In this document: positions 23,881 through 44,936 of the stretch, one piece after another | How the letters are laid out: each line of letters opens with the position of its first letter | How positions within the stretch are numbered: the first letter of the stretch is position 1 | Assembly (NCBI GenBank): GCA_030425705.1 | Contig: JAUHZU010000006.1 | Coordinates: 62,001-126,000, forward strand | Origin: Phycisphaerae bacterium | GTDB taxonomy: Bacteria; Planctomycetota; Phycisphaerae; Phycisphaerales; Phycisphaeraceae | Direction: 5' to 3' | Length of the DNA: 64,000 bases | Program-made: the position numbers and the translations under genes | The notes under the pieces: generated by a model | Seen by the model: only the letters and a program-made list of their open reading frames with translations | Databases searched by the model: none | Told to the model about the DNA's origin: nothing

Positions 23881-23901
23881 CGACCCGAGACCCGAGACCC
23901 G
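23881..23901 (+). repeat. Three perfect copies of a 7-bp unit
   Basis: GACCCGA is repeated three times without interruption in the gap between rlmN and the peptidase gene. A related GGGTCTCGGG stretch lies near 23791 on the same strand. This is low-complexity intergenic sequence. Confidence 0.6.
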
Positions 23902-23919
23902 AGCCCCGGTAGCCGCCCT

Positions 23920-26031: not shown

Positions 26032-28971
26032 CTATTTCGCCTCGAACCAGTGCTTGCCGACTCCCACATCCACCTTGAGCGGCACGCGCAAGTCCATCGC
26101 GCCGGTCATCGCTTCTTCGACGACCTGAGCGATGCGGTCCGCCTCGCTCGCCGGGCACTCGACGACGAGTTCGTCGTGGATCTGAAGCAGCAGCTTGGCG
26201 GGCAGGGATTCGTCCTCGATGCGCTGCTGCAGGTTCACCATCGCGACCTTGATAAGGTCCGCGGCGCTGCCCTGCACGACCGAGTTGATCGCCAGACGTT
26301 CGGCCAACGCACGCTTCTGGCCGTTGCGGTCGTCGATGTCGGGGATCGCGCGGCGTCGGCCGAGCACCGTCTGCACGTAGCCGTGCTCCCGGGCGTGGGC
26401 GACGCACGCATCCAGGAAACGGTCGATGCCCGTGAACCGCAGCTTGTAGTCGGCGATGAGTTTCGCGGCCGCCTCGTTGTCCATCTCGTCGATCCGCCGG
26501 GCCAGGCCATAGGCCGTGATACCATAGATGATCCCGAAGTTGATCACTTTAGCGCGGGCCCGCTGCTCACTCGAAACATCTTCCGGGGGAGTCTCGAAGA
26601 CCTGCGCCGCGACAGCGGTGTGGATGTCCTGGTCGTCGATGAACGCGGCGGTCAGCGCGGCGTCCTCACTCAGATGCGCGAGCACACGGAGCTCGATCTG
26701 CGAGTAGTCCGCAGCGATCAACACGTGCCCCGGCGGCGCGACAAACGCCTTGCGGATTTCCCGGCCGACGTCCGTGCGGATCGGGATGTTCTGCAGGTTC
26801 GGGTCGCTCGAAGACAGCCGTCCCGTCGCCGCGCCGGTCTGGTTGAATCGTGCGTGCACACGCCCATCGGGCGCGATCGCGTCTTTCAGCGCGACCAGGT
26901 ACGTCCCCACCAGCTTGGTCAGCATCCGATACTCGACCATGAGCGCCGGGATCGGCCGGGCGTCTTCCGCGACCCCCGCGAGTTCGTCGGCCGACATCGC
27001 CGCGAGTTTATCGAGGACTTCGCTGTCCGTGCTGTAGCCGGTCTTGGTCTTCTTGACCGGCTTGAACCCGAGCTGGTTGAACAGCACATCGCCGAGCTGC
27101 TTCGGGCTGTCGGGGTTGAAGTCCACCTTCGCGCGGTCGAGGATCTCGGTGCGCAGCGCATCGATGCGATGCTGAAGCGCCTCGCGCTGGGCGTCGAGCG
27201 TGTCGGCATCAACGGTGATGCCGTGCTGCTCCATCGTCGCAAGCACGCGGACCAGCGGCATCTCGACGCGCCCGTACAGGTCGGTCATGCCCATGGCGTC
27301 GAGCCGGTCCCGGAACAATGTGCAGAGCTGCAAGGTGATGTCCGCGTCCTCGGCCGCGTAGGGCGTGACCCGGTCCAGCGCGACCTGGTCCATCGTCTTC
27401 TGCGGTGGGTCGCTCTTCTTGCGCGGCTTCGGGCCGATCAGCTCGGTGATCGGGATACAGTGGTGCCCCAGTTCCGCGAGCGCCAGGTCGTCCATCCCCC
27501 GCCCGGGGGCCCCCGCTAAAAACGCGCCGACCATCGAGTCAAACACCACGCCGCGCATGGCGATGCCTTGGCCCCCCGGCAGCGCGTTGCGCAGCACAAG
27601 GTCGTCGTACTTGATGTTGTGTCCGCACTTGGGGACGGCCGGATCCTCGAGCACGGTACGGAGCGTTGCGACGACCGCCGACGTGTTGAGATGCGTGTCT
27701 TGCTCGGGCGACAGGGTGGGGATGTAGACCCCGCTGCCGGGTGCCCACGACAGGCATACGCCGCACAGCGCCGCGTCGTGCCCGAGACCCACCGTCTCGG
27801 TATCCACCGCGATCAGCGGCTGCTTGCGCATCGTCGCGACGACTTCGTCCAACTCCTCCTGCGTGCGGACCGTGCGGTAGTCCCCGCTGACCTCACGCAC
27901 CGGCCCTTCCTCGGCCGGGCCACCATCATCCCCCGCCCCCGCGAACAACCCAAAGCCCGCCTCAGTTGCCGCAGCCGACTTTTTCCCCTTCGCTGCCTTG
28001 CCTTCTTTGGCTTCCCGGCGACCTGACAGCTTGGCGTTTTCGGCCTGCGGGACCTCGCCGCCCAGCAGCTTCGCCAGGTCTTCGCGGTGGCGGTTGAAGC
28101 CGAGTTCCCGGAAGACTTCCTGTAGCTTCTCACCGTCGATCTTCGCCGTGCCTTCGGTCGCCAGCGCGGTGAAGTCGAACACGGTATCCATGTCCGTCGC
28201 GAGGGTGACGAGCCGGCGGGTCAGCTCGATGGTCCCGTCGGCCACGGCCGTCTCGATGTTCTCCTTCTGCTTGCCCTTGAGCTGGTCGGTGTTGGCGAGC
28301 AGGTTCTCGACCGTGCCGAACGTGTCGAGGAGCTTGGCCGCGGTCTTCGGGCCGATACCCTTGACGCCGGGGATGTTGTCCGTCGAGTCGCCGATCAGCG
28401 TCTGGTAGTCGATGACCTGCTGCGGGGCGATGCCGCGCTTCTCCATCAGCGCCGCGACGTCCATCGCCTGGTCCGTGTGGATGTCGAACAGCTCGACCCG
28501 CTCGCCCAGCACCTGCTCGAGGTCCTTGTCCTTCGCGACCATCCGTAGCGTCGCCCCCGGGAGGATGTCGTCGAAGTCGCCGCGCGCGATCCGCACCGCG
28601 AGCGTCGCCATGATGTCGTCCGCCTCGAAGCCCGCCGCCTCGAGCACGGGGATGCCGAACAGCTCCGCGATCTCCACCATCCGCGGGATCTGCGCCTTGA
28701 ACTCGTCCGGCGGGGCGTCGCGGTTGGCCTTGTATTCCGGGTAGAAGTCGTCCCGAAACGTCTTGGCGTCCGCGTCCATCGCCATCGCCACATGCGTCGG
28801 CCGGTACTGATCGAACAGCTTGATCAGCATCCCCGAAAACGCAAACGTCGCCCCCGTCGGCTCCCCCGTCACCGGCGAGGTCATCCCCCCCCGGATCGCG
28901 TAGTACGCCCGGAACATCTGCGCGAAACCATCGATGATGTAGACCGTAGGTGCGGAAGAATCGTCTGGCAT
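26032..28971 (-). CDS. polA: DNA polymerase I
   Basis: 979 residues carrying all three domains. The 5'-nuclease domain (about 1-300) contains GVKGIGPKTAAKLL. The proofreading 3'-5' exonuclease (about 375-565) retains its acidic motifs: VDTETVG (motif I), HNIKYDDL (motif II) and YAAEDADI (motif III), so it should be active. The polymerase domain has DYSQIELRVLAHLSED (motif A), RAKVINFGIIYG (motif B) and QIHDELVVECP (motif C). It fills gaps in repair and removes Okazaki primers. A Lys/Ala-rich linker separates the first two domains. It appears to be transcribed alone. Confidence 0.97.
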   Translation of the reverse strand: MPDDSSAPTVYIIDGFAQMFRAYYAIRGGMTSPVTGEPTGATFAFSGMLIKLFDQYRPTHVAMAMDADAKTFRDDFYPEYKANRDAPPDEFKAQIPRMVEIAELFGIPVLEAAGFEADDIMATLAVRIARGDFDDILPGATLRMVAKDKDLEQVLGERVELFDIHTDQAMDVAALMEKRGIAPQQVIDYQTLIGDSTDNIPGVKGIGPKTAAKLLDTFGTVENLLANTDQLKGKQKENIETAVADGTIELTRRLVTLATDMDTVFDFTALATEGTAKIDGEKLQEVFRELGFNRHREDLAKLLGGEVPQAENAKLSGRREAKEGKAAKGKKSAAATEAGFGLFAGAGDDGGPAEEGPVREVSGDYRTVRTQEELDEVVATMRKQPLIAVDTETVGLGHDAALCGVCLSWAPGSGVYIPTLSPEQDTHLNTSAVVATLRTVLEDPAVPKCGHNIKYDDLVLRNALPGGQGIAMRGVVFDSMVGAFLAGAPGRGMDDLALAELGHHCIPITELIGPKPRKKSDPPQKTMDQVALDRVTPYAAEDADITLQLCTLFRDRLDAMGMTDLYGRVEMPLVRVLATMEQHGITVDADTLDAQREALQHRIDALRTEILDRAKVDFNPDSPKQLGDVLFNQLGFKPVKKTKTGYSTDSEVLDKLAAMSADELAGVAEDARPIPALMVEYRMLTKLVGTYLVALKDAIAPDGRVHARFNQTGAATGRLSSSDPNLQNIPIRTDVGREIRKAFVAPPGHVLIAADYSQIELRVLAHLSEDAALTAAFIDDQDIHTAVAAQVFETPPEDVSSEQRARAKVINFGIIYGITAYGLARRIDEMDNEAAAKLIADYKLRFTGIDRFLDACVAHAREHGYVQTVLGRRRAIPDIDDRNGQKRALAERLAINSVVQGSAADLIKVAMVNLQQRIEDESLPAKLLLQIHDELVVECPASEADRIAQVVEEAMTGAMDLRVPLKVDVGVGKHWFEAK

Positions 28972-29020: not shown

Positions 29021-29035
29021 GGCGTTGGAAGGCAT

Positions 29036-29070
29036 GAAACCACCGATGCGCACCGATGTACACCGATCGC
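29036..29070 (+). repeat. ACCGATG-type dispersed repeat, single copy
   Basis: It begins GAAACCACCGATGCGC and continues with two further CACCGATG/CACCGAT units. It matches both arms of the palindrome at 43541-43620 at most positions. Confidence 0.75.
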
Positions 29071-29177: not shown

Positions 29178-29282
29178 CTGGGGGCCGAACACCTCTTAGC
29201 ACCGGTCGAACGGTGCTTACGACCGGTCATCCTTGGCTGACGACCGGTCAAACACCGCTCCCGACCGGTTGAAACCGGCCGA
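29178..29282 (+). repeat. 21-bp tandem array with palindromic ACCGGT cores
   Basis: ACCGGT occurs at 29201, 29222, 29243 and 29264, exactly 21 bases apart each time. Counting a degenerate first unit (29178-29198), five units are visible. The consensus is roughly CGACCGGTC followed by 12 more variable bases. There are no spacers of different length, so it is not a CRISPR array. Confidence 0.88.
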
Positions 29283-29398
29283 AAACGGGTCGCCAGCCGC
29301 ATCCGTGCCGGTCCTTTATGCATTTCCCACCGGGCGACATCACTGACGGGCTGAGGGATAGAGTTGGAGCAGCGGTTTGAGTAAGGTATTCCGTTTCA

Positions 29399-29432: not shown

Positions 29433-30143
29433 ATGAGTGACCGTACCACCTATGACGGGACAGGGCGCATTGAACACGGAGACGCAGATTTTTTTCTAGC
29501 ATCGGATATCCCCAAGATCGTTGAGGATATCCTTAACTCCCCCGTAAGTAAAAAGTACCAAGATCCTGACCCACTCGATGCATGTGAATCACCGATAGAA
29601 TCTGAGTTTGCCAATCATCTGCTCAAGCATCTGCGTGATGATTTGGCTTTAGAGGCTCAGGTGGAGGTGAAAGCACTTGGCAATAAGTTTCGGTTAGATT
29701 TTGTGGTTAGAGACGATTGTCGAATCGCATTTGAGTGTGATGGTCGAGAGTTTCATGAAGACTTCAGGGATGAAGTAAGGGATGCTCTGCTTTTGGGAGA
29801 GGACTGTGTAGATGTGGTTTATCACATTGATGGCTCCTTCATTCACTATCACCTATACGATTTGCTCTACTTGATATCCCAGTGGGACGGCAAGATTTTT
29901 AGCGAGAGAGGCAAAATGATTCTATCTAGCCTCAGATCAGAGTTCATGCGTTCTGATTTCGTAAACTGTTCGGACAAATCTTGTTACATCTTGGGTGGTA
30001 GTTTCGTGCGCCGTCGCACACGCATTCCCTCAGAAATGCGCCCTAAGGAACATTGGAGACATTTGCACAAAAGAGCTCGGGAGCATTCAGGTAAATCATT
30101 CTCGGAGTTGATGGAGCTTCTTAGTAGTCAGGCTTTTGGCTAG
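29433..30143 (+). CDS. Low-GC orphan, nuclease-like (PD-(D/E)xK/DUF559-type) protein
   Basis: 236 residues. The middle carries SPIESEFANHLL, then KFRLDFVV, then CRIAFECDGREFH, a spacing of Glu-Asp-Glu-x-Asp/His seen in Vsr-like and DUF559-type PD-(D/E)xK nucleases. A catalytic lysine is not obvious, so activity is uncertain. Codon use is strikingly AT-rich compared with polA and purL on either side, which suggests recent acquisition. The N-terminal third and the basic C-terminal tail (RPKEHWRHLHKRAREH) match nothing I recognise. Alternatives are a stand-alone restriction or anti-phage nuclease, or a domesticated mobile-element remnant. It converges with purL, 11 bases from its end. Confidence 0.65.
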   Translation: MSDRTTYDGTGRIEHGDADFFLASDIPKIVEDILNSPVSKKYQDPDPLDACESPIESEFANHLLKHLRDDLALEAQVEVKALGNKFRLDFVVRDDCRIAFECDGREFHEDFRDEVRDALLLGEDCVDVVYHIDGSFIHYHLYDLLYLISQWDGKIFSERGKMILSSLRSEFMRSDFVNCSDKSCYILGGSFVRRRTRIPSEMRPKEHWRHLHKRAREHSGKSFSELMELLSSQAFG

Positions 30144-30154
30144 GCCGCCTCTGG

Positions 30155-33100
30155 CTACCAATCCAGCATCCCCAGCCACGCTTCGCGCAGGTCGTCGAGT
30201 TTGGCGTCGAGGATTTGCCCGGCGGTGGGGGTGCGGCAGGTGAGTTGCTGGTGGTCCTTGAACAGGCCGACTTGGCCGAAGGGGACGCCGGCTTTCAGGA
30301 GGGTGTCCATGAACGCGCCGATGTGGTCCTGCTCGACTTCGAGGAGGTACCGGCTGGGGGTCTCGGCGAAGAGCTGTTGGTCGAGGAGGCAGGACTCGCA
30401 GGGCTGGCCGGCGAGGTCGAGGTCCAGGCCCACCCGGCCGGCGAAGGCCATCTCGGCGGCGGCGACGAGCAGGCCGCCCTCGGAGCAGTCGTGGGCGCTC
30501 GCGACCAGCCGCTGCCGGATGAGCGACGCGACGGCCTTGGCGTTGCGCGGGCCTGCGGCGAGGTCGACCGGCGGGATGTTCCCGCTGGTCCCCGTCAGCA
30601 TCGCGTAGTGCGAGCCGCCCATGTGCCAGGTGGTGCTGCCGACGATGAACAGCGCGTTGCCCGGTTGCTTGGCGTCCATGGTGACGCACTGGTTCACGTC
30701 TTCGACGATGCCCAGCGCGCTGATGAGCATGGTCTGAGGGATGGTGATGAGGTCGCCGTCTTCGGTGGTGAATTGGTTGCTGAGCGAGTCCTTGCCGGAG
30801 ACGAAGGGCGTGCGGTAGGCGAGGGCGCCGTCGTAGCACGCCTCGGCCGCGCGGACGAGCGTGCCGAGCTGCCAGGGGTCGTCGCACTTGGCCCAGCAGA
30901 AGTTGTCGAGGATCGCGACGCGGTCCGGGTCCGCGCCGGTGCAGACGGCGTTGCGCATGGCTTCGTCGATGGCGTGGAGCACCATCTGGTACGAGTCGCC
31001 GTCGGTGGCGTGGCCGGTGTGGTTGGCCTTCTCGCTGACGTGAGGGGCGAGCCCACAGGAGAGCGTGATGCCTTTGGCCGAGTCGAGCTTGGGGCGGAGG
31101 ACGGCGGCGTCCGATGGGCCGTCCTGCTGCGGGCCGACGAGGGGCTTGACGACTGAGCTGCCCTGGACCTCGTGGTCGTACTGACGGACGACCCAGTGCT
31201 TGGAGGCGATGTTGGGGTGGGCGAGGAGGGCGAAGAGCTTGTCGCTTGTGTTGCGGTCTTGGGTGAGGGGGTCTCCAGCTATGCTGCGCACAGGTGAGCG
31301 ATCTGGTGTTTGCGTTTTATGGCGCGGGTTGAGGGGCGACCAGGCGGCTTCGCGGGTGGGGGTGGGGATGCCGTCGTGGAGCAGGGGCATGGCGAGGTTG
31401 CCGACCTCGGTGCCGTGGTAGGTGAGCTTGAGGGTGGGCGTCTCGTTCTCGGTGTAGCCAAAGTAGCCCAGGTCGCAGCACTCGACATCTTCTGCGGCGC
31501 AGAGCGCCTTGATCGTCTCGACGTTCTCCTGGGGCACGGCCAGGGGCATGCGTTCCTGCGCTTCGCTGATCCACACCTCGGTGTAGCTGAGCCCGCGGTA
31601 CTTGAGGGGCGCGGTCTCGAGGGTGACATAGGCCCCGACCTTTTCGCCCATCTCGCCGACGGCGGAGGAGAACCCGCCGGCCCCGCAGTCGGAGATCGCG
31701 TTAAAGAGGCATCGCTGCTGACCGGTGTCGGGGTCGGTGTAGTCGCGGGCCTGGAGGATGACGTCGAGGGTCTTCTTCTCGGTGATGGCGTTGCCGATCT
31801 GCACGGCGTGGCTGAACTCGTCGGCGTGGGTGTCGGTGAGTTCATCGGAGGAGAACGTCGCGCCGTGGATGCCGTCGCGGCCGGTACGTCCGCCGAGGAT
31901 GATGATGCGGTCGCCGGGCTGTGGGTCGCCGAAGCACTTGTCCAGAGGGATGATGCCGACGCAGCCGGCGAAGACGAGCGGGTTGGCGAGGTAGTCGTCG
32001 TGGAAGTAGACAGCCCCGTTGACGGTGGGGATGCCCATGCGGTTGCCGTAGTCGCGCACGCCGTCGACGACGCGGCGGAGTACGCGCTTGGGCGCGAGCA
32101 CGCCGGCGGGCAGGTCGGTTGTGCCGGGGTGGGCGACGCAGAAGGTGTCGGTGTTGGCGATGGGCTTGGCGCTCAGGCCGGTGCCCATGATGTCGCGGAT
32201 GCAGCCGCCGATGCCGGTCGCCGCGCCGCCGTAGGGTTCGATGGCGGAGGGGTGGTTGTGGGTCTCGACCTTGATGGCGATGCCGTGGGTCTCGTCGAGC
32301 TTGACGATGCCGGCGTTATCGTCGAAGACGGAGACGAGCCAGTCGCCGATCGCGGGGTCTTCCTTGAGCTTGAAGGTCGCGGCGGCAACGGTGGACTTGA
32401 GCAGGTTGTGGATGGTGACGCTGCCGTCGTCGTGGAGGTCGTGGTTGGGCTTGTTTTGGAAGAACGAGGGAAGACCCGATGCGGCGCTGCGCTCAGCCCC
32501 GGCTTGCGTGTATCTAATGCGGGCCTTGAGCGTCTTGTGGACGCAGTGCTCGGACCACGTTTGAGCGAGGGTTTCGAGCTCGACGTCCGTGGGTTCGCGG
32601 TCGGCGTCGCGGTAGTACCGCTGCACCTGCTGCATCTCGTCGAGCGAGAGGAACAGGTGGCCTTCGCGCGAGAGCTTCATCAGCGCTTCGTCGTCGAGAT
32701 CGCGGATCGGGACGTGGGTGAGGTTGAAGTCGTAGGCGTGGCCGTGCGGAAAGCTGCCCGGGTGGTGGGGGGCGAGGGTGACGTCCTGGATGACCGCGTT
32801 AGCGAGGCCGGCGTTGGCGAAGGCGGTCAGGGCGGTGTCGTCGGCGTCGGGGTGGGTGATGTCGTAGCGTTCGCCGGTGGCGACGTAGATCGCCTCGCGG
32901 TCGAGGGTGGGGAACATCTCGGCGATGGCGTCGGCGGTCGACTCGGCGACGGGGTCCATCACGCCGGGCTGGTAATGGACTTCAAGCAGGCGTGCGCCGT
33001 CCACGATCGGCGCGCTGCCGAGCGTCGCGGACTGGCTGACGGGGTCGGCGAGCAACTCGTCGGCGACCCGCCGGGCCTGTTCGTCGGTGAGTGGCGCCTC

Positions 33101-33274
33101 GATCAGGAAGACCTTGGCCGCGGCGATGGCCGTGCAGCCGGGCAGGTTGTCATCGGCCTGCGAACGGGCGCGGTCGGCGAGCGGGTCGGCCTGGCCCGCG
33201 AGGGTGCGGACCTCGAAGCGGTGGACCCGTGATGCGGGGCATGGGGGGGCGGTCGAGGTGTCGGCGGCGGTCAT
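30155..33274 (-). CDS. purL: Phosphoribosylformylglycinamidine synthase, PurL subunit with N-terminal PurS-like domain
   Basis: 1039 residues. It converts FGAR to FGAM in purine synthesis using ATP and glutamine-derived ammonia. The N-terminal 100 or so residues look like a PurS-like domain; the catalytic core has TWSEHCVHKTLKARI, KVETHNHPSAIEPYGGAATG and a second ATPase half with SDCGAGGFSSAVGEMG and HDCSEGGLLVA. There is no PurQ glutaminase domain at the C-terminus, so PurQ must be encoded elsewhere. The ATG at 33274 is chosen for GGAGGG six bases upstream; a longer frame to 33313 lacks this. It ends a run of minus-strand genes beginning with cdaA. Confidence 0.93.
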   Translation of the reverse strand: MTAADTSTAPPCPASRVHRFEVRTLAGQADPLADRARSQADDNLPGCTAIAAAKVFLIEAPLTDEQARRVADELLADPVSQSATLGSAPIVDGARLLEVHYQPGVMDPVAESTADAIAEMFPTLDREAIYVATGERYDITHPDADDTALTAFANAGLANAVIQDVTLAPHHPGSFPHGHAYDFNLTHVPIRDLDDEALMKLSREGHLFLSLDEMQQVQRYYRDADREPTDVELETLAQTWSEHCVHKTLKARIRYTQAGAERSAASGLPSFFQNKPNHDLHDDGSVTIHNLLKSTVAAATFKLKEDPAIGDWLVSVFDDNAGIVKLDETHGIAIKVETHNHPSAIEPYGGAATGIGGCIRDIMGTGLSAKPIANTDTFCVAHPGTTDLPAGVLAPKRVLRRVVDGVRDYGNRMGIPTVNGAVYFHDDYLANPLVFAGCVGIIPLDKCFGDPQPGDRIIILGGRTGRDGIHGATFSSDELTDTHADEFSHAVQIGNAITEKKTLDVILQARDYTDPDTGQQRCLFNAISDCGAGGFSSAVGEMGEKVGAYVTLETAPLKYRGLSYTEVWISEAQERMPLAVPQENVETIKALCAAEDVECCDLGYFGYTENETPTLKLTYHGTEVGNLAMPLLHDGIPTPTREAAWSPLNPRHKTQTPDRSPVRSIAGDPLTQDRNTSDKLFALLAHPNIASKHWVVRQYDHEVQGSSVVKPLVGPQQDGPSDAAVLRPKLDSAKGITLSCGLAPHVSEKANHTGHATDGDSYQMVLHAIDEAMRNAVCTGADPDRVAILDNFCWAKCDDPWQLGTLVRAAEACYDGALAYRTPFVSGKDSLSNQFTTEDGDLITIPQTMLISALGIVEDVNQCVTMDAKQPGNALFIVGSTTWHMGGSHYAMLTGTSGNIPPVDLAAGPRNAKAVASLIRQRLVASAHDCSEGGLLVAAAEMAFAGRVGLDLDLAGQPCESCLLDQQLFAETPSRYLLEVEQDHIGAFMDTLLKAGVPFGQVGLFKDHQQLTCRTPTAGQILDAKLDDLREAWLGMLDW

Positions 33275-33383
33275 CGTGCGCCCTCCATGGCGGGTCGGGG
33301 TCGAAACGAGCATGATACCCCCGGCAAGGCGGGGGAGGGTTCATCCACAACATCGCGTGCAGCCACCGCCGGCGAGTCAGGCC

Positions 33384-42055: not shown

Positions 42056-43441
42056 CTACGCCGCGTCCAGCCGCTGCACACCCGGGGCCCTGGGCGCGTC
42101 GCTCGCTTCCGCGATGACGCCGGGCGGGGGCGTCGGCGTGCAACGACCCCCGGGGGGCAGCCGGCCCACGTCGTACTTCCCGCGGCACTTGCCCGCCAGC
42201 ACCCCGGCCAACGCGCTTCCGGGGGCCACATGCTCCTGCCAACGGTCCCGCAGCTCCCGCGCAAACGCCACCACCACCGGGTCGCTCTTCCGCTGCGCCG
42301 CCTTCAACGCCCGCTTCGCCGCGTCCTTCTCCGCCCGGATCTCCGCCAACGCCTGCTCACGCCCGGCCAACGCCGCGGCTTCGACGCTCTCACCCGGCTT
42401 CTCCGCACCCGGGGCATCCGGGGGTTCCGGGGGTTCCGCCGGTGCCCCAAACCCGCTCCCCGCCCCGAACCCATAGCCCACCACCGTGCGGGATGCCTGC
42501 TTCTGCTTGGCATCCGAGCGGCTTCCGGGGGGCGTCTTGGCGTGCTTTCCCCTCCGCGCCGCCTTCTTCGCCGCCTTCTCCCGCAGCGAAACCGCCTCCA
42601 CCTTCTGCTCCAGCAACTTCTGCTCGGCTTCTCTCTGCTCCGCCCCCGGAAGCACCACCGGCGTCGCCTCGTCCCACTGCACCTCCGGCGGCAGCGGCAG
42701 GATCACCCGGCTCTCCATCATCGCACCACCCTGCGTCTCATACGGGTACCACCACCCCCGGAACGTGCCGGCCCGCGCTGCCTCCACATCGGCCGCACGC
42801 ACGGGCTTCTGCCAGAACACGTGCACCGCCCCCTTCGTGTCCCCCGTCTTGCGCTGGATCTTCTCGATCGTGCTCCGGCCCGCCGCGCGGAACGCCAGCG
42901 GCACAAACCCCATCGCCTCCCAGAACCGGTTCGCCTCCAGCGACTGCTTGCACCAGCAGCAGTACAGCCGACACCCGTACGCCGACTCCTCAAACTGCGC
43001 CTGCAGCAGCGCGGCCGCGACGTTCATCCGCCGGTACGCCGGCACCACCGCCATCTGATAGATAATCCCCACATCCCCACGCTTCATGTACCGGTCCACG
43101 CCCAGGCAGTAGCCCACCGGCACCGGCGGGGCCGGTGAGTGAACAGTACCTAGTGAACAGTGAACAGCCGATCCTTCTTCCCCACTGTTCACTGTGGACT
43201 GCTCACTGTTCACTCTGATCGCTTCCGCGATCAGGATGTTCCCCTCCTCGATGCGCTTGCGGATCGCCTGTTCGTACATAAACCCGACTTTGTCGGACTC
43301 CTGCTTCTGCAGCGCATCGATAAACGCGAAGTCGCCGGGCGTCGCCGGCCGGACGCGGAGGTCCACCCCCCGCGCCGATGGATCGACCTTGCACAGCTCA
43401 CCCGTCACAGTCCGATCGTTGATCCGAATCACTTCTGACAT
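42056..43441 (-). CDS. GNAT acetyltransferase with long charged C-terminal extension and in-frame repeat insertion
   Basis: 461 residues from the ATG at 43441, supported by GGGAG seven bases upstream. The N-terminal GNAT domain runs from RVRPATPGDFAFIDALQKQE to about residue 190, with YQMAVVPAYRRMNVAAALL as the acetyl-CoA-binding part and a Cys-rich stretch (GCRLYCCWCKQSLEAN). Roughly residues 82-107 are encoded by a palindromic repeat element that interrupts the domain in frame. The C-terminal 200 residues are low-complexity, rich in Lys, Ala, Glu and Pro, and partly coiled coil. Its substrate is unknown. It lies downstream of the 226-residue unknown protein across a 330-base repeat-bearing gap. 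Confidence 0.72.
   Translation of the reverse strand: MSEVIRINDRTVTGELCKVDPSARGVDLRVRPATPGDFAFIDALQKQESDKVGFMYEQAIRKRIEEGNILIAEAIRVNSEQSTVNSGEEGSAVHCSLGTVHSPAPPVPVGYCLGVDRYMKRGDVGIIYQMAVVPAYRRMNVAAALLQAQFEESAYGCRLYCCWCKQSLEANRFWEAMGFVPLAFRAAGRSTIEKIQRKTGDTKGAVHVFWQKPVRAADVEAARAGTFRGWWYPYETQGGAMMESRVILPLPPEVQWDEATPVVLPGAEQREAEQKLLEQKVEAVSLREKAAKKAARRGKHAKTPPGSRSDAKQKQASRTVVGYGFGAGSGFGAPAEPPEPPDAPGAEKPGESVEAAALAGREQALAEIRAEKDAAKRALKAAQRKSDPVVVAFARELRDRWQEHVAPGSALAGVLAGKCRGKYDVGRLPPGGRCTPTPPPGVIAEASDAPRAPGVQRLDAA
43138..43214. repeat. 77-bp palindromic element inside a GNAT gene
   Basis: Two 30-base arms (43138-43167 and 43185-43214), built of AGTGAACAGT units and their complements, pair at about two thirds of positions, including 10 and 11 bases at the arm ends. 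The element keeps the reading frame of the host gene. Confidence 0.8.
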
Positions 43442-43486
43442 GACATAGCTCCCACGAAATGAAACCAAAGCAATAACAAAGCATCT

Positions 43487-43513
43487 CACACCAAGGCGCC
43501 AAGACGCGGAGGG
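43487..43513 (+). repeat. Dispersed ACCAAGGCGCC/GCGGAGG-type repeat, copy 3
   Basis: CACACCAAGGCGCCAAGACG followed by CGGAGGGA. It is the same composition class as the stretches at 11941 and 28991. Confidence 0.55.
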
Positions 43514-43540
43514 ATCAGTAACAAGAAGCAAAGGCGGGTT

Positions 43541-43620
43541 GAAACCACCGATGGACACCGATACACACGGATCAGTTCAGTGTGTCCGATCGGTGTACAT
43601 CCATGTGCATCGGTGGTTTC
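43541..43620. repeat. Palindromic pair of the ACCGATG-type repeat
   Basis: The left arm 43541-43573 and right arm 43588-43620 are 33 bases each, in inverted orientation around a 14-base loop. Both begin GAAACCACCGATG when read outside-in. A single copy lies at 29036-29070. Confidence 0.85.
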
Positions 43621-43773
43621 TTCCCTTCTGTGCGCGTCCGCGCCCTGGCGTGAGGAAACATATCAAAACCGCAGAGGACGCCGGCCACGCCGGGCAGGGC
43701 TAGGGGGGGAGGTGCCCCGCCGCGGCGTGGCGGAGCGTCCCCTGCGGTAAAAGTGAGAACAGGTTTCCCGGGG

Positions 43774-44454
43774 TCACGCCGCCTGCGACAGGCCGTCGTG
43801 GCCGGTGTACGACTTGACGGGGGCACAGGCCGGCCCGGGCTTGCCGGTCGGGTTGACCCAAAGGGCCGTGACCCAGACCTCGGTGCCGGGGGCGACGCTC
43901 TCGGGGAAGACGATCTGCGGGTTGCTCCGCGTCGACTCGCCCTCGAACTTCCACTGCGTCAGGTCCGGCGACGGGTCGGCCCCGACGTGCGTGTACAGCC
44001 ACGCCGAGCGCACGCCGTTCGGCTTGCGCTTCTCGTTCTCCTGGTTCAGCAGCTCCAGGTCCAGCACCCGCTGGCTCACCTCCGTCACCCGCAGCACCGG
44101 CATCTCGGTCGGGATGCCGATCGGGGTGGGCTCGTTGTCGCGGACCGGGATGCCCAGGTCCTTGCGTTTGCCGTTGGTCATGCCCGACCAGTTCTGCAGC
44201 GTCTGCACCAGCGGACGGGTGGCGGCGATGAGCGCCTGCTTCTCCTCGGTCTTGTCCTCGATGTTCACCGGCGTGCGCGTGGCCGGGTCGGTGGCCAGCG
44301 CGTACGCCGCGGCGAACGCCTGCTGCACGGCCTGGTAGTCCGCCGCCGCCTGCACATCCAGGCCGTAGCCCGGCGGGTCCGCGACCAGCTTGGTGGCGAG
44401 GTTGCTGGTCCACGCCAACAGCTCGCCCTCACGGGTAGGTACATAATCCGGCAT
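43774..44454 (-). CDS. Conserved-looking protein of unknown function with a beta-rich C-terminal half
   Basis: 226 residues from the ATG at 44454 (AGGAG seven bases upstream). The N-terminal half is helical (REGELLAWTSNLATKL, DYQAVQQAFAAAYALA, KQALIAATRPLVQTLQNW). The C-terminal half looks fibronectin-like, with RSAWLYTHVGADP, WKFEGESTRSNPQIVFP and GTEVWVTALWVNPTGKPGPA. From memory, proteins of this layout recur in planctomycetes and Bacteroidetes without a known function. No signal peptide is present. The region before its start holds a 21-bp tandem array. Confidence 0.75.
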   Translation of the reverse strand: MPDYVPTREGELLAWTSNLATKLVADPPGYGLDVQAAADYQAVQQAFAAAYALATDPATRTPVNIEDKTEEKQALIAATRPLVQTLQNWSGMTNGKRKDLGIPVRDNEPTPIGIPTEMPVLRVTEVSQRVLDLELLNQENEKRKPNGVRSAWLYTHVGADPSPDLTQWKFEGESTRSNPQIVFPESVAPGTEVWVTALWVNPTGKPGPACAPVKSYTGHDGLSQAA

Positions 44455-44705
44455 GTCGATACTCCTGTCTTTCGCCCGAACGGGCGGTGCAAAAAGAAAG
44501 GCCCCAGAACAAGCACCCCCCCGGGCCCCGGCCACCCGCGGTGCACACGCTGTGCCCCGCAGAAGTGATCCATGACCCGTTGTCGGCATCCTGCGCGACC
44601 GACTTAACCCCTCCGGCCGCGCCAGACCCCAAAAAGTGCAAAACACTTCCAGGCCCGCCCCCGGCAGGTCCCAAACGGCGGTGCAGGGCTCCCAAACCGC
44701 CTTCA

Positions 44706-44936
44706 AACATGCCGGAAACCCGCCCCGTACCTCCGGACGCCGTTCCAGTGATGCCACAAGCCCAGTCAGTCATCCCCCAAGAGATTTCCGACATGCCTGG
44801 AGCCGCCTCAGTGATGCCTGAAACCTTTTCCGGCATCACTGAGAAGTTTTAAGACATCACTGAGAATGTTTCAGGCATCACTTAAGGGGTCTTTGTAATC
44901 ACTGACAACGCCTCCGGCATGTCGGAGGCGTTGTCT
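44706..44936 (+). repeat. 21-bp tandem array, eleven clear units
   Basis: Eleven consecutive 21-base units with a consensus near GGCATCACTGAGAACGTTTCA; for example the units at 44832, 44853 and 44874 share CATCACTgAgaa. More diverged units of the same period extend left to about 44620. Because 21 is a multiple of three, both strands read as heptapeptide repeats over the left part, but plus-strand stops occur in units 7 and 9. Confidence 0.9.
44904..44935. terminator. 13-bp perfect hairpin formed by the last two array units
   Basis: GACAACGCCTCCG pairs perfectly with CGGAGGCGTTGTC around the six-base loop GCATGT. No T-run of usual length follows on either strand (TTAAGG on the plus side), so terminator activity is uncertain. 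Confidence 0.6.

Follow-up and report, generated by a model that had tools for sequence, protein, structure and literature searches.

The stretch of DNA analysed here, a window of 64,000 nucleotides from the genome of a Phycisphaerae bacterium, carries an intergenic array in which the hexamer ACCGGT recurs at steps of 21 bp. The closest named relatives of its polA place the strain (genome G000; the window is C13:62001-126000) in the Phycisphaeraceae of the Planctomycetota. Which of its properties is being kept, whether spacing, codon phase or sequence, and whether the array stands alone or belongs to a wider class, are the questions raised by this locus. The preliminary description had placed ACCGGT at 29201, 29222, 29243 and 29264, and the sequence bears out all four positions and the exact 21-bp steps. 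The features concerned are collected in Table 1.

Table 1. Features discussed, in window coordinates; the names polA and purL are assigned from the look of the sequence.
Feature	Position	Strand	Remarks
polA (DNA polymerase I)	26032..28971	-	left neighbour of insert; start at 28971
Dispersed ACCGATG-type repeat	29029..29070	.	left of array; many copies in the strain's own genome (G000) and in G001
21-bp array	29201..29290	.	four ACCGGT units and a decayed fifth (ACGGGT); lag-21 segment 29183-29268
Orphan 236-aa ORF	29433..30143	+	weak restriction-endonuclease-like match
purL-type gene	30155..33313	-	right neighbour of insert
Gene B	42056..43441	-	GNAT acetyltransferase domain and conserved C-terminal tail; comes after gene A
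Gene A	43774..44454	-	uncharacterised three-helix and FN3 protein; lies closely behind the 44.7-kb array
Second 21-bp array (44.7 kb)	44746..44902	.	TCAGTGATG-type family, common to locus L118

The array at 29201 and its surroundings

The array is unusual because of the phasing of ACCGGT, not because of its abundance. The hexamer occurs 20 times in the window against 20.95 expected, and is thus not over-represented; three pairs lie exactly 21 bp apart, and each of 30 dinucleotide shuffles held none. Across the whole 4.1-Mb genome, successive exact pairs at this distance are found only here, with one further isolated pair at C14:150998. The intergenic region between polA and the nuclease-like ORF has a lag-21 self-match score of 24, a value that 2000 shuffles, scored at every lag between 10 and 44, did not once attain. 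ACCGGT is intact in four of five units, and the fifth, at 29285, is in register with one mismatch; a unit at 29306 is off by one base. No selected ORF of at least 120 aa overlaps the array, where only short and unlikely ORFs occur. Each 21-bp unit directly abuts the next, head to tail, with no unique spacers of the kind that separate CRISPR repeats.

In the same-genus genomes G001, G002 and G003, purL and polA are directly adjacent, and the array and the orphan ORF, together a stretch of roughly 1.1 kb between these genes, are therefore read as an insert of the strain's own lineage. Loss in all three congeners would be the less simple alternative. No transposon ends were found in the flanks of the array; only the ACCGATG-type repeat and two other short matches came up. 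This repeat, which is common in the genus and has a sub-period of roughly 10 bp, makes up most of the 24 own-genome and 13 G001 matches to the flanks. It is also seen at 43540-43628 of the window, and several of its copies lie just behind copies of gene A, often as inverted pairs. Elsewhere in the window, two short heptamer arrays (GACCCGA and CACTGTT) occupy 23882-23908 and 43183-43214.

The orphan ORF matches PF18741 at 19.6 bits, under the family cutoff of 38.2. When 251 genomes of the order were searched, its own genome alone matched and none of the 250 others held a relative, and for this reason the ORF was rejected as a general partner of such arrays.

A class of 21-bp arrays and a linked gene family

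When 880 kb of the strain's genome and 400 kb of G001 were surveyed, lags 21 and 42 were in excess, but the neighbouring lags 20, 22, 41 and 43 were not. For a census of arrays, another 400 kb of G001 was added, giving 1.68 Mb, and arrays inside plausible genes were removed. This left 14 non-coding segments at lag 21 or 42, from which two lag-21 segments of L119 were dropped since, in our judgement, they look like small repetitive genes. The 12 remaining non-coding arrays all have a period of 21 or its double; non-coding periods other than 21 were scattered. Their units, many with a self-complementary core, differ by locus, for instance GTGCGCCAGCGCACAGCGGAC at L110, CGTTCCAGTTCTAGAACCCGG at L111 and ATCAGTTACGCCGCGTAACTG at L145. 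Certain families nevertheless turn up at more than one locus (L145 and L193, r 0.96; the 44.7-kb array and L118, r 0.96). The preliminary description had proposed a genome-wide class with fixed spacing, a proposal that would fall if there were no other 21-bp arrays and no conservation of spacing in relatives. The opposite was found on both counts, and the proposal is supported. Such arrays are not everywhere, since none of 38 loci around polA, mostly from other lineages, has a segment at lag 20-22 with a score of 24.

A second array of the same period and another sequence, reported near 44.7 kb in the same description, was recovered as a lag segment. Unit likeness was judged against a null of column-permuted arrays (mean r 0.28, 99% point r 0.45). 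The 44.7-kb unit falls outside the five best matches of the 29201 unit, the fifth of which has r 0.34, and judged by their sequences the two have no kinship beyond chance. Resemblance was found instead to two arrays of the congener G001 (L144, r 0.58; L157, r 0.48), one of which sits beside a gene B tail. The array at 29201 is best read as a short, probably decaying example of these non-coding 21-bp tandem arrays, a class that keeps its period but not its sequence. In another family, 21-bp arrays with a GACCGGTC core lie at L270 6254-6443 and L272 6750-6992 (G034, G038); the L270 array lies about 90 bp before an ORF that by the look of its sequence we take to be Fur-like, not before gene A. 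The strain's assembly also contains an unbroken run of about 70 G at L105 17543-17618 (G000:C14 near 157.6 kb).

The second array of the window opens a complete module at 42056-44902, made of a 21-bp array, gene A and gene B. Relatives of gene A are also found behind the arrays at L111, L118, L137 and L142, and gene B, a GNAT domain with a conserved tail, often comes next. At L261 6546-7670 (G094), gene A is followed not by gene B but by a gene for a repeat-rich protein (SKLREGAVKAEHI-type). L118 (G000:C7, about 14.1-14.9 kb) is almost identical to the 44.7-kb locus in its array and in the N-terminal part of its gene A, and this gene A copy has an internal stop; the shared sequence suggests gene conversion between paralogues.

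Within Planctomycetota, an array of period 21 (37 cases) or 20 (2 cases) lies at most 700 bp upstream of gene A in 39 of 63 homologues. A lag score of at least 19 is reached within the same distance by 40, the fortieth at lag 24; among 2000 random 700-bp windows, 43 attain the lag score, 26 of them at lag 21. The excess over the downstream side, where 5 of 63 have an array at any lag, gives a Fisher p of 4e-11, and the placing of six of the 12 unselected arrays upstream of one of the eight gene A copies in the 1.68-Mb census stretch gives a binomial p of about 3e-11; these values overstate independence, because the homologues are mutually related. The linkage extends to distant families of the phylum (6/6 in G094, 4/4 in G050 and 4/7 examined in G262) and to a second, Bacteroidota-type phylum, that of G516. 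There, 23 matches less two false ones leave 21 true homologues, 14 of them with a lag-21 array 54-270 bp upstream; on the downstream side the count is 1 of 23. No period-20/21 array is detectable upstream of 24 of the 63 homologues in Planctomycetota and 7 of the 21 in the second phylum. When the gene-A-linked arrays are pooled, 48 of 50 have period 21 and two have period 20, with a median of 10 units, and they lie 48-482 bp before the start codon (median 160 bp). Seen from the side of the arrays, six of the 12 unselected ones precede gene A, one accompanies a gene B tail and five do neither; six of the eight gene A copies in that stretch have an array. The array at 29201 is among the five: no gene A match was found within 700 bp to its left or right (around 28.9-30.2 kb). 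We found no paper tying such arrays to a gene family in a literature search that took in only a minority of subscription journals, and the linkage is new in this sense.

The 63 homologues are those with enough upstream sequence. Contig-end fragments and edge cases were omitted (among them G000:C9:281741, where there is no array; G000:C14:213215; G028:C72, with a 20-bp array beside it; G028:C21 and C16; G273:C71; G050:C5:715; G094:C21:141489), as were weak N-terminal matches of one family. Fourteen weak N-terminal matches examined apart gave four arrays at lag 21, one at lag 18, one at lag 28 and eight with none. In one genus (G028, G032 and G036; L165, L202 and L173), the arrays upstream of gene A are exactly 20 bp in period. 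At L289 (G776:C37:54174), a gene A relative has a strong lag-21 array (score 234) downstream and none upstream.

Gene A was found in 12 of 41 genomes comprising the strain and its relatives, in 16 of 292 genomes of the phylum when the profile was widened (for one of these, G271, the match is judged false), and as matches in 6 of 296 genomes of the second phylum. It was not found in nine genomes reached through polA loci, and one tblastn query at E 1e-3 did not find it in plasmids or phages. L279 and L280, in the second phylum, and L222, in the strain's own phylum, were set aside as false positives on account of their QueC-like sequence.

Searches of Pfam, PHROGs, NCBIfam and PADLOC at E values up to 0.01 gave no match to gene A. 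Its AlphaFold model is a three-helix bundle followed by an FN3 domain (mean pLDDT 89.8, pTM 0.54); Foldseek likewise identifies the C-terminal half as FN3, and a viral library returned FN3-bearing phage proteins and nothing beyond. The N-terminal half alone has no match below E 0.001 and by VIA-align resembles only common helical bundles (best Z 8.2), from which no function follows; the lack of a DNA-binding fold in the VIA-align list carries no evidential weight. A phmmer match to TAL effectors at E about 1e-10 was rejected, because the score sums over many near-identical repeats and no single stretch passed. With its predicted FN3 fold and no consistent positive charge or basic bias, gene A does not appear to be an evident DNA-binder. 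Two gene A proteins that are 81% identical have unrelated arrays, which speaks against a tight recognition pair of gene A and array; one of the two, L118, is a mosaic, matching the 44.7-kb locus in its array and its N-terminal part.

Unit architecture and the readings it allows

The preliminary description had joined two ideas, a spacing of two helical turns and a palindromic core of the type that a dimeric protein would bind. When the columns of the unit were permuted, 17 of 36 arrays had a dyad significant at 5% or better (at least 190 of 200 permutations beaten), eight of the 36 exceeding all 200; the remaining 19 had no significant dyad. The array at 29201 has a short one, confined to a core of 6-8 bp. 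Both ideas are consistent with these results, and binding by a dimer is a candidate role.

The distance of the arrays from the start codon would also suit leader or small RNAs that act as RNA, and published RNA-seq data support transcription of a different class, the 52-nt repeats of Bacillus coagulans (PMC8161180, PMC8625621), for which RNA action has been proposed in print. On the sense strand of the gene, however, the arm mismatches of 23 arrays comprise 31 G-U and 42 A-C pairs. With no G-U bias, the dyad is read as a property of the DNA, nothing points to selection for an RNA hairpin, and we consider action as RNA rather improbable. Changes compensated on both arms are rare (19 of 1001 cells). 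Least probable by far is that the arrays encode heptapeptide repeats, 21 bp being seven codons. As coding would have it, 48 of 50 arrays have a period divisible by three and 42 of 50 have at least one open frame; in the other eight, all six frames are closed and coding is excluded, two arrays have a period of 20, and the dyad is a DNA-level feature. Codon phase, which the preliminary description had offered as one thing that the spacing might conserve, is not supported, given the same eight arrays and the two of period 20.

It is also unlikely, if less so, that the arrays are a neutral or selfish satellite, generated by slippage and unequal exchange with a period of two helical turns set by the copying machinery, for which gene A loci would merely be recombination-prone places of persistence. 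Such a satellite would account for array families copied among loci whether or not gene A is present (L145/L193 and 44.7 kb/L118), for unit numbers that differ between the likely orthologues L137 of G000 and L194 of G001, and for an array at 29201 that has no gene A. What argues against it is that in two phyla the arrays accompany a single gene family and almost always lie upstream of it, and that dyads are in excess.

We regard as evenly poised the reading in which the array, of a class linked to gene A, is a DNA platform for cooperatively bound dimers, since the 21-bp spacing, the dyad in many units, the free change of sequence and the position before genes all fit. The array would have entered the purL-polA gap in the lineage of the strain, with the orphan nuclease-like gene now behind it. 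Each unit may be one binding site for a protein dimer. As 21 bp is two turns of B-DNA, successive dimers would be placed on one face of the DNA, which could make their binding cooperative. The bound dimers might then join into a short filament or a loop by which the gene behind them is controlled or marked. Recombination between arrays, together with gain and loss of units, would turn the sequence over fast, and the spacing needed for cooperativity would stay. More tentatively, and with a little less than even confidence, we propose that the 21-bp array and the three-helix/FN3 gene form one unrecognised two-part module across at least two phyla, present in several paralogous copies per genome and selected for helical spacing, not sequence. 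The solitary array at 29201 may then have lost its gene or may act in trans.

Known repeats and the meaning of the linkage

Operator and iteron arrays are alike in having direct repeats about two turns apart and a self-complementary core. They differ in that no initiator or regulator gene was identified beside the array at 29201, whose neighbours are polA, purL and the orphan ORF, and in that the sequence here varies from array to array in one genome. REP and BIME palindromes are short intergenic palindromic units, sometimes clustered. The 21-bp arrays, unlike these, share no sequence common to the genome, and their units are joined head to tail in fixed steps of 21 bp.

A class of repeats of 20-21 nt is said to have been founded by a 2020 paper of Subirana and Messeguer in J Bacteriol. 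Tandem repeats of this kind, constant in size and variable in sequence, are known and unexplained according to the accessible text of these authors (PMC8161180). Features common to that text and to the present arrays are a period of 20-21, short non-coding arrays, several unrelated families per genome, a short conserved motif in each unit and turnover between strains. The array at 29201 is an ordinary member of this published class: it has period 21 and at least four units, it is non-coding, its genome holds several families of equal period, and its units carry a short motif, the fifth with one mismatch. What differs here is the linked protein family, the dyad in many arrays and the occurrence in Planctomycetota and a Bacteroidota-type phylum, as compared with what the accessible text describes. 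That text puts forward a similar idea of a protein polymer, for stabilisation of the nucleoid, and names no partner protein for the 20-21 nt repeats (PMC8161180).

Bacterial repeats of 20-21 nt have been called enigmatic, since their length is fixed and their sequence is not. A gene family linked to them in two phyla makes the enigma testable: which protein is the binder, whether spacing or sequence is what counts, and what role the FN3 protein plays.
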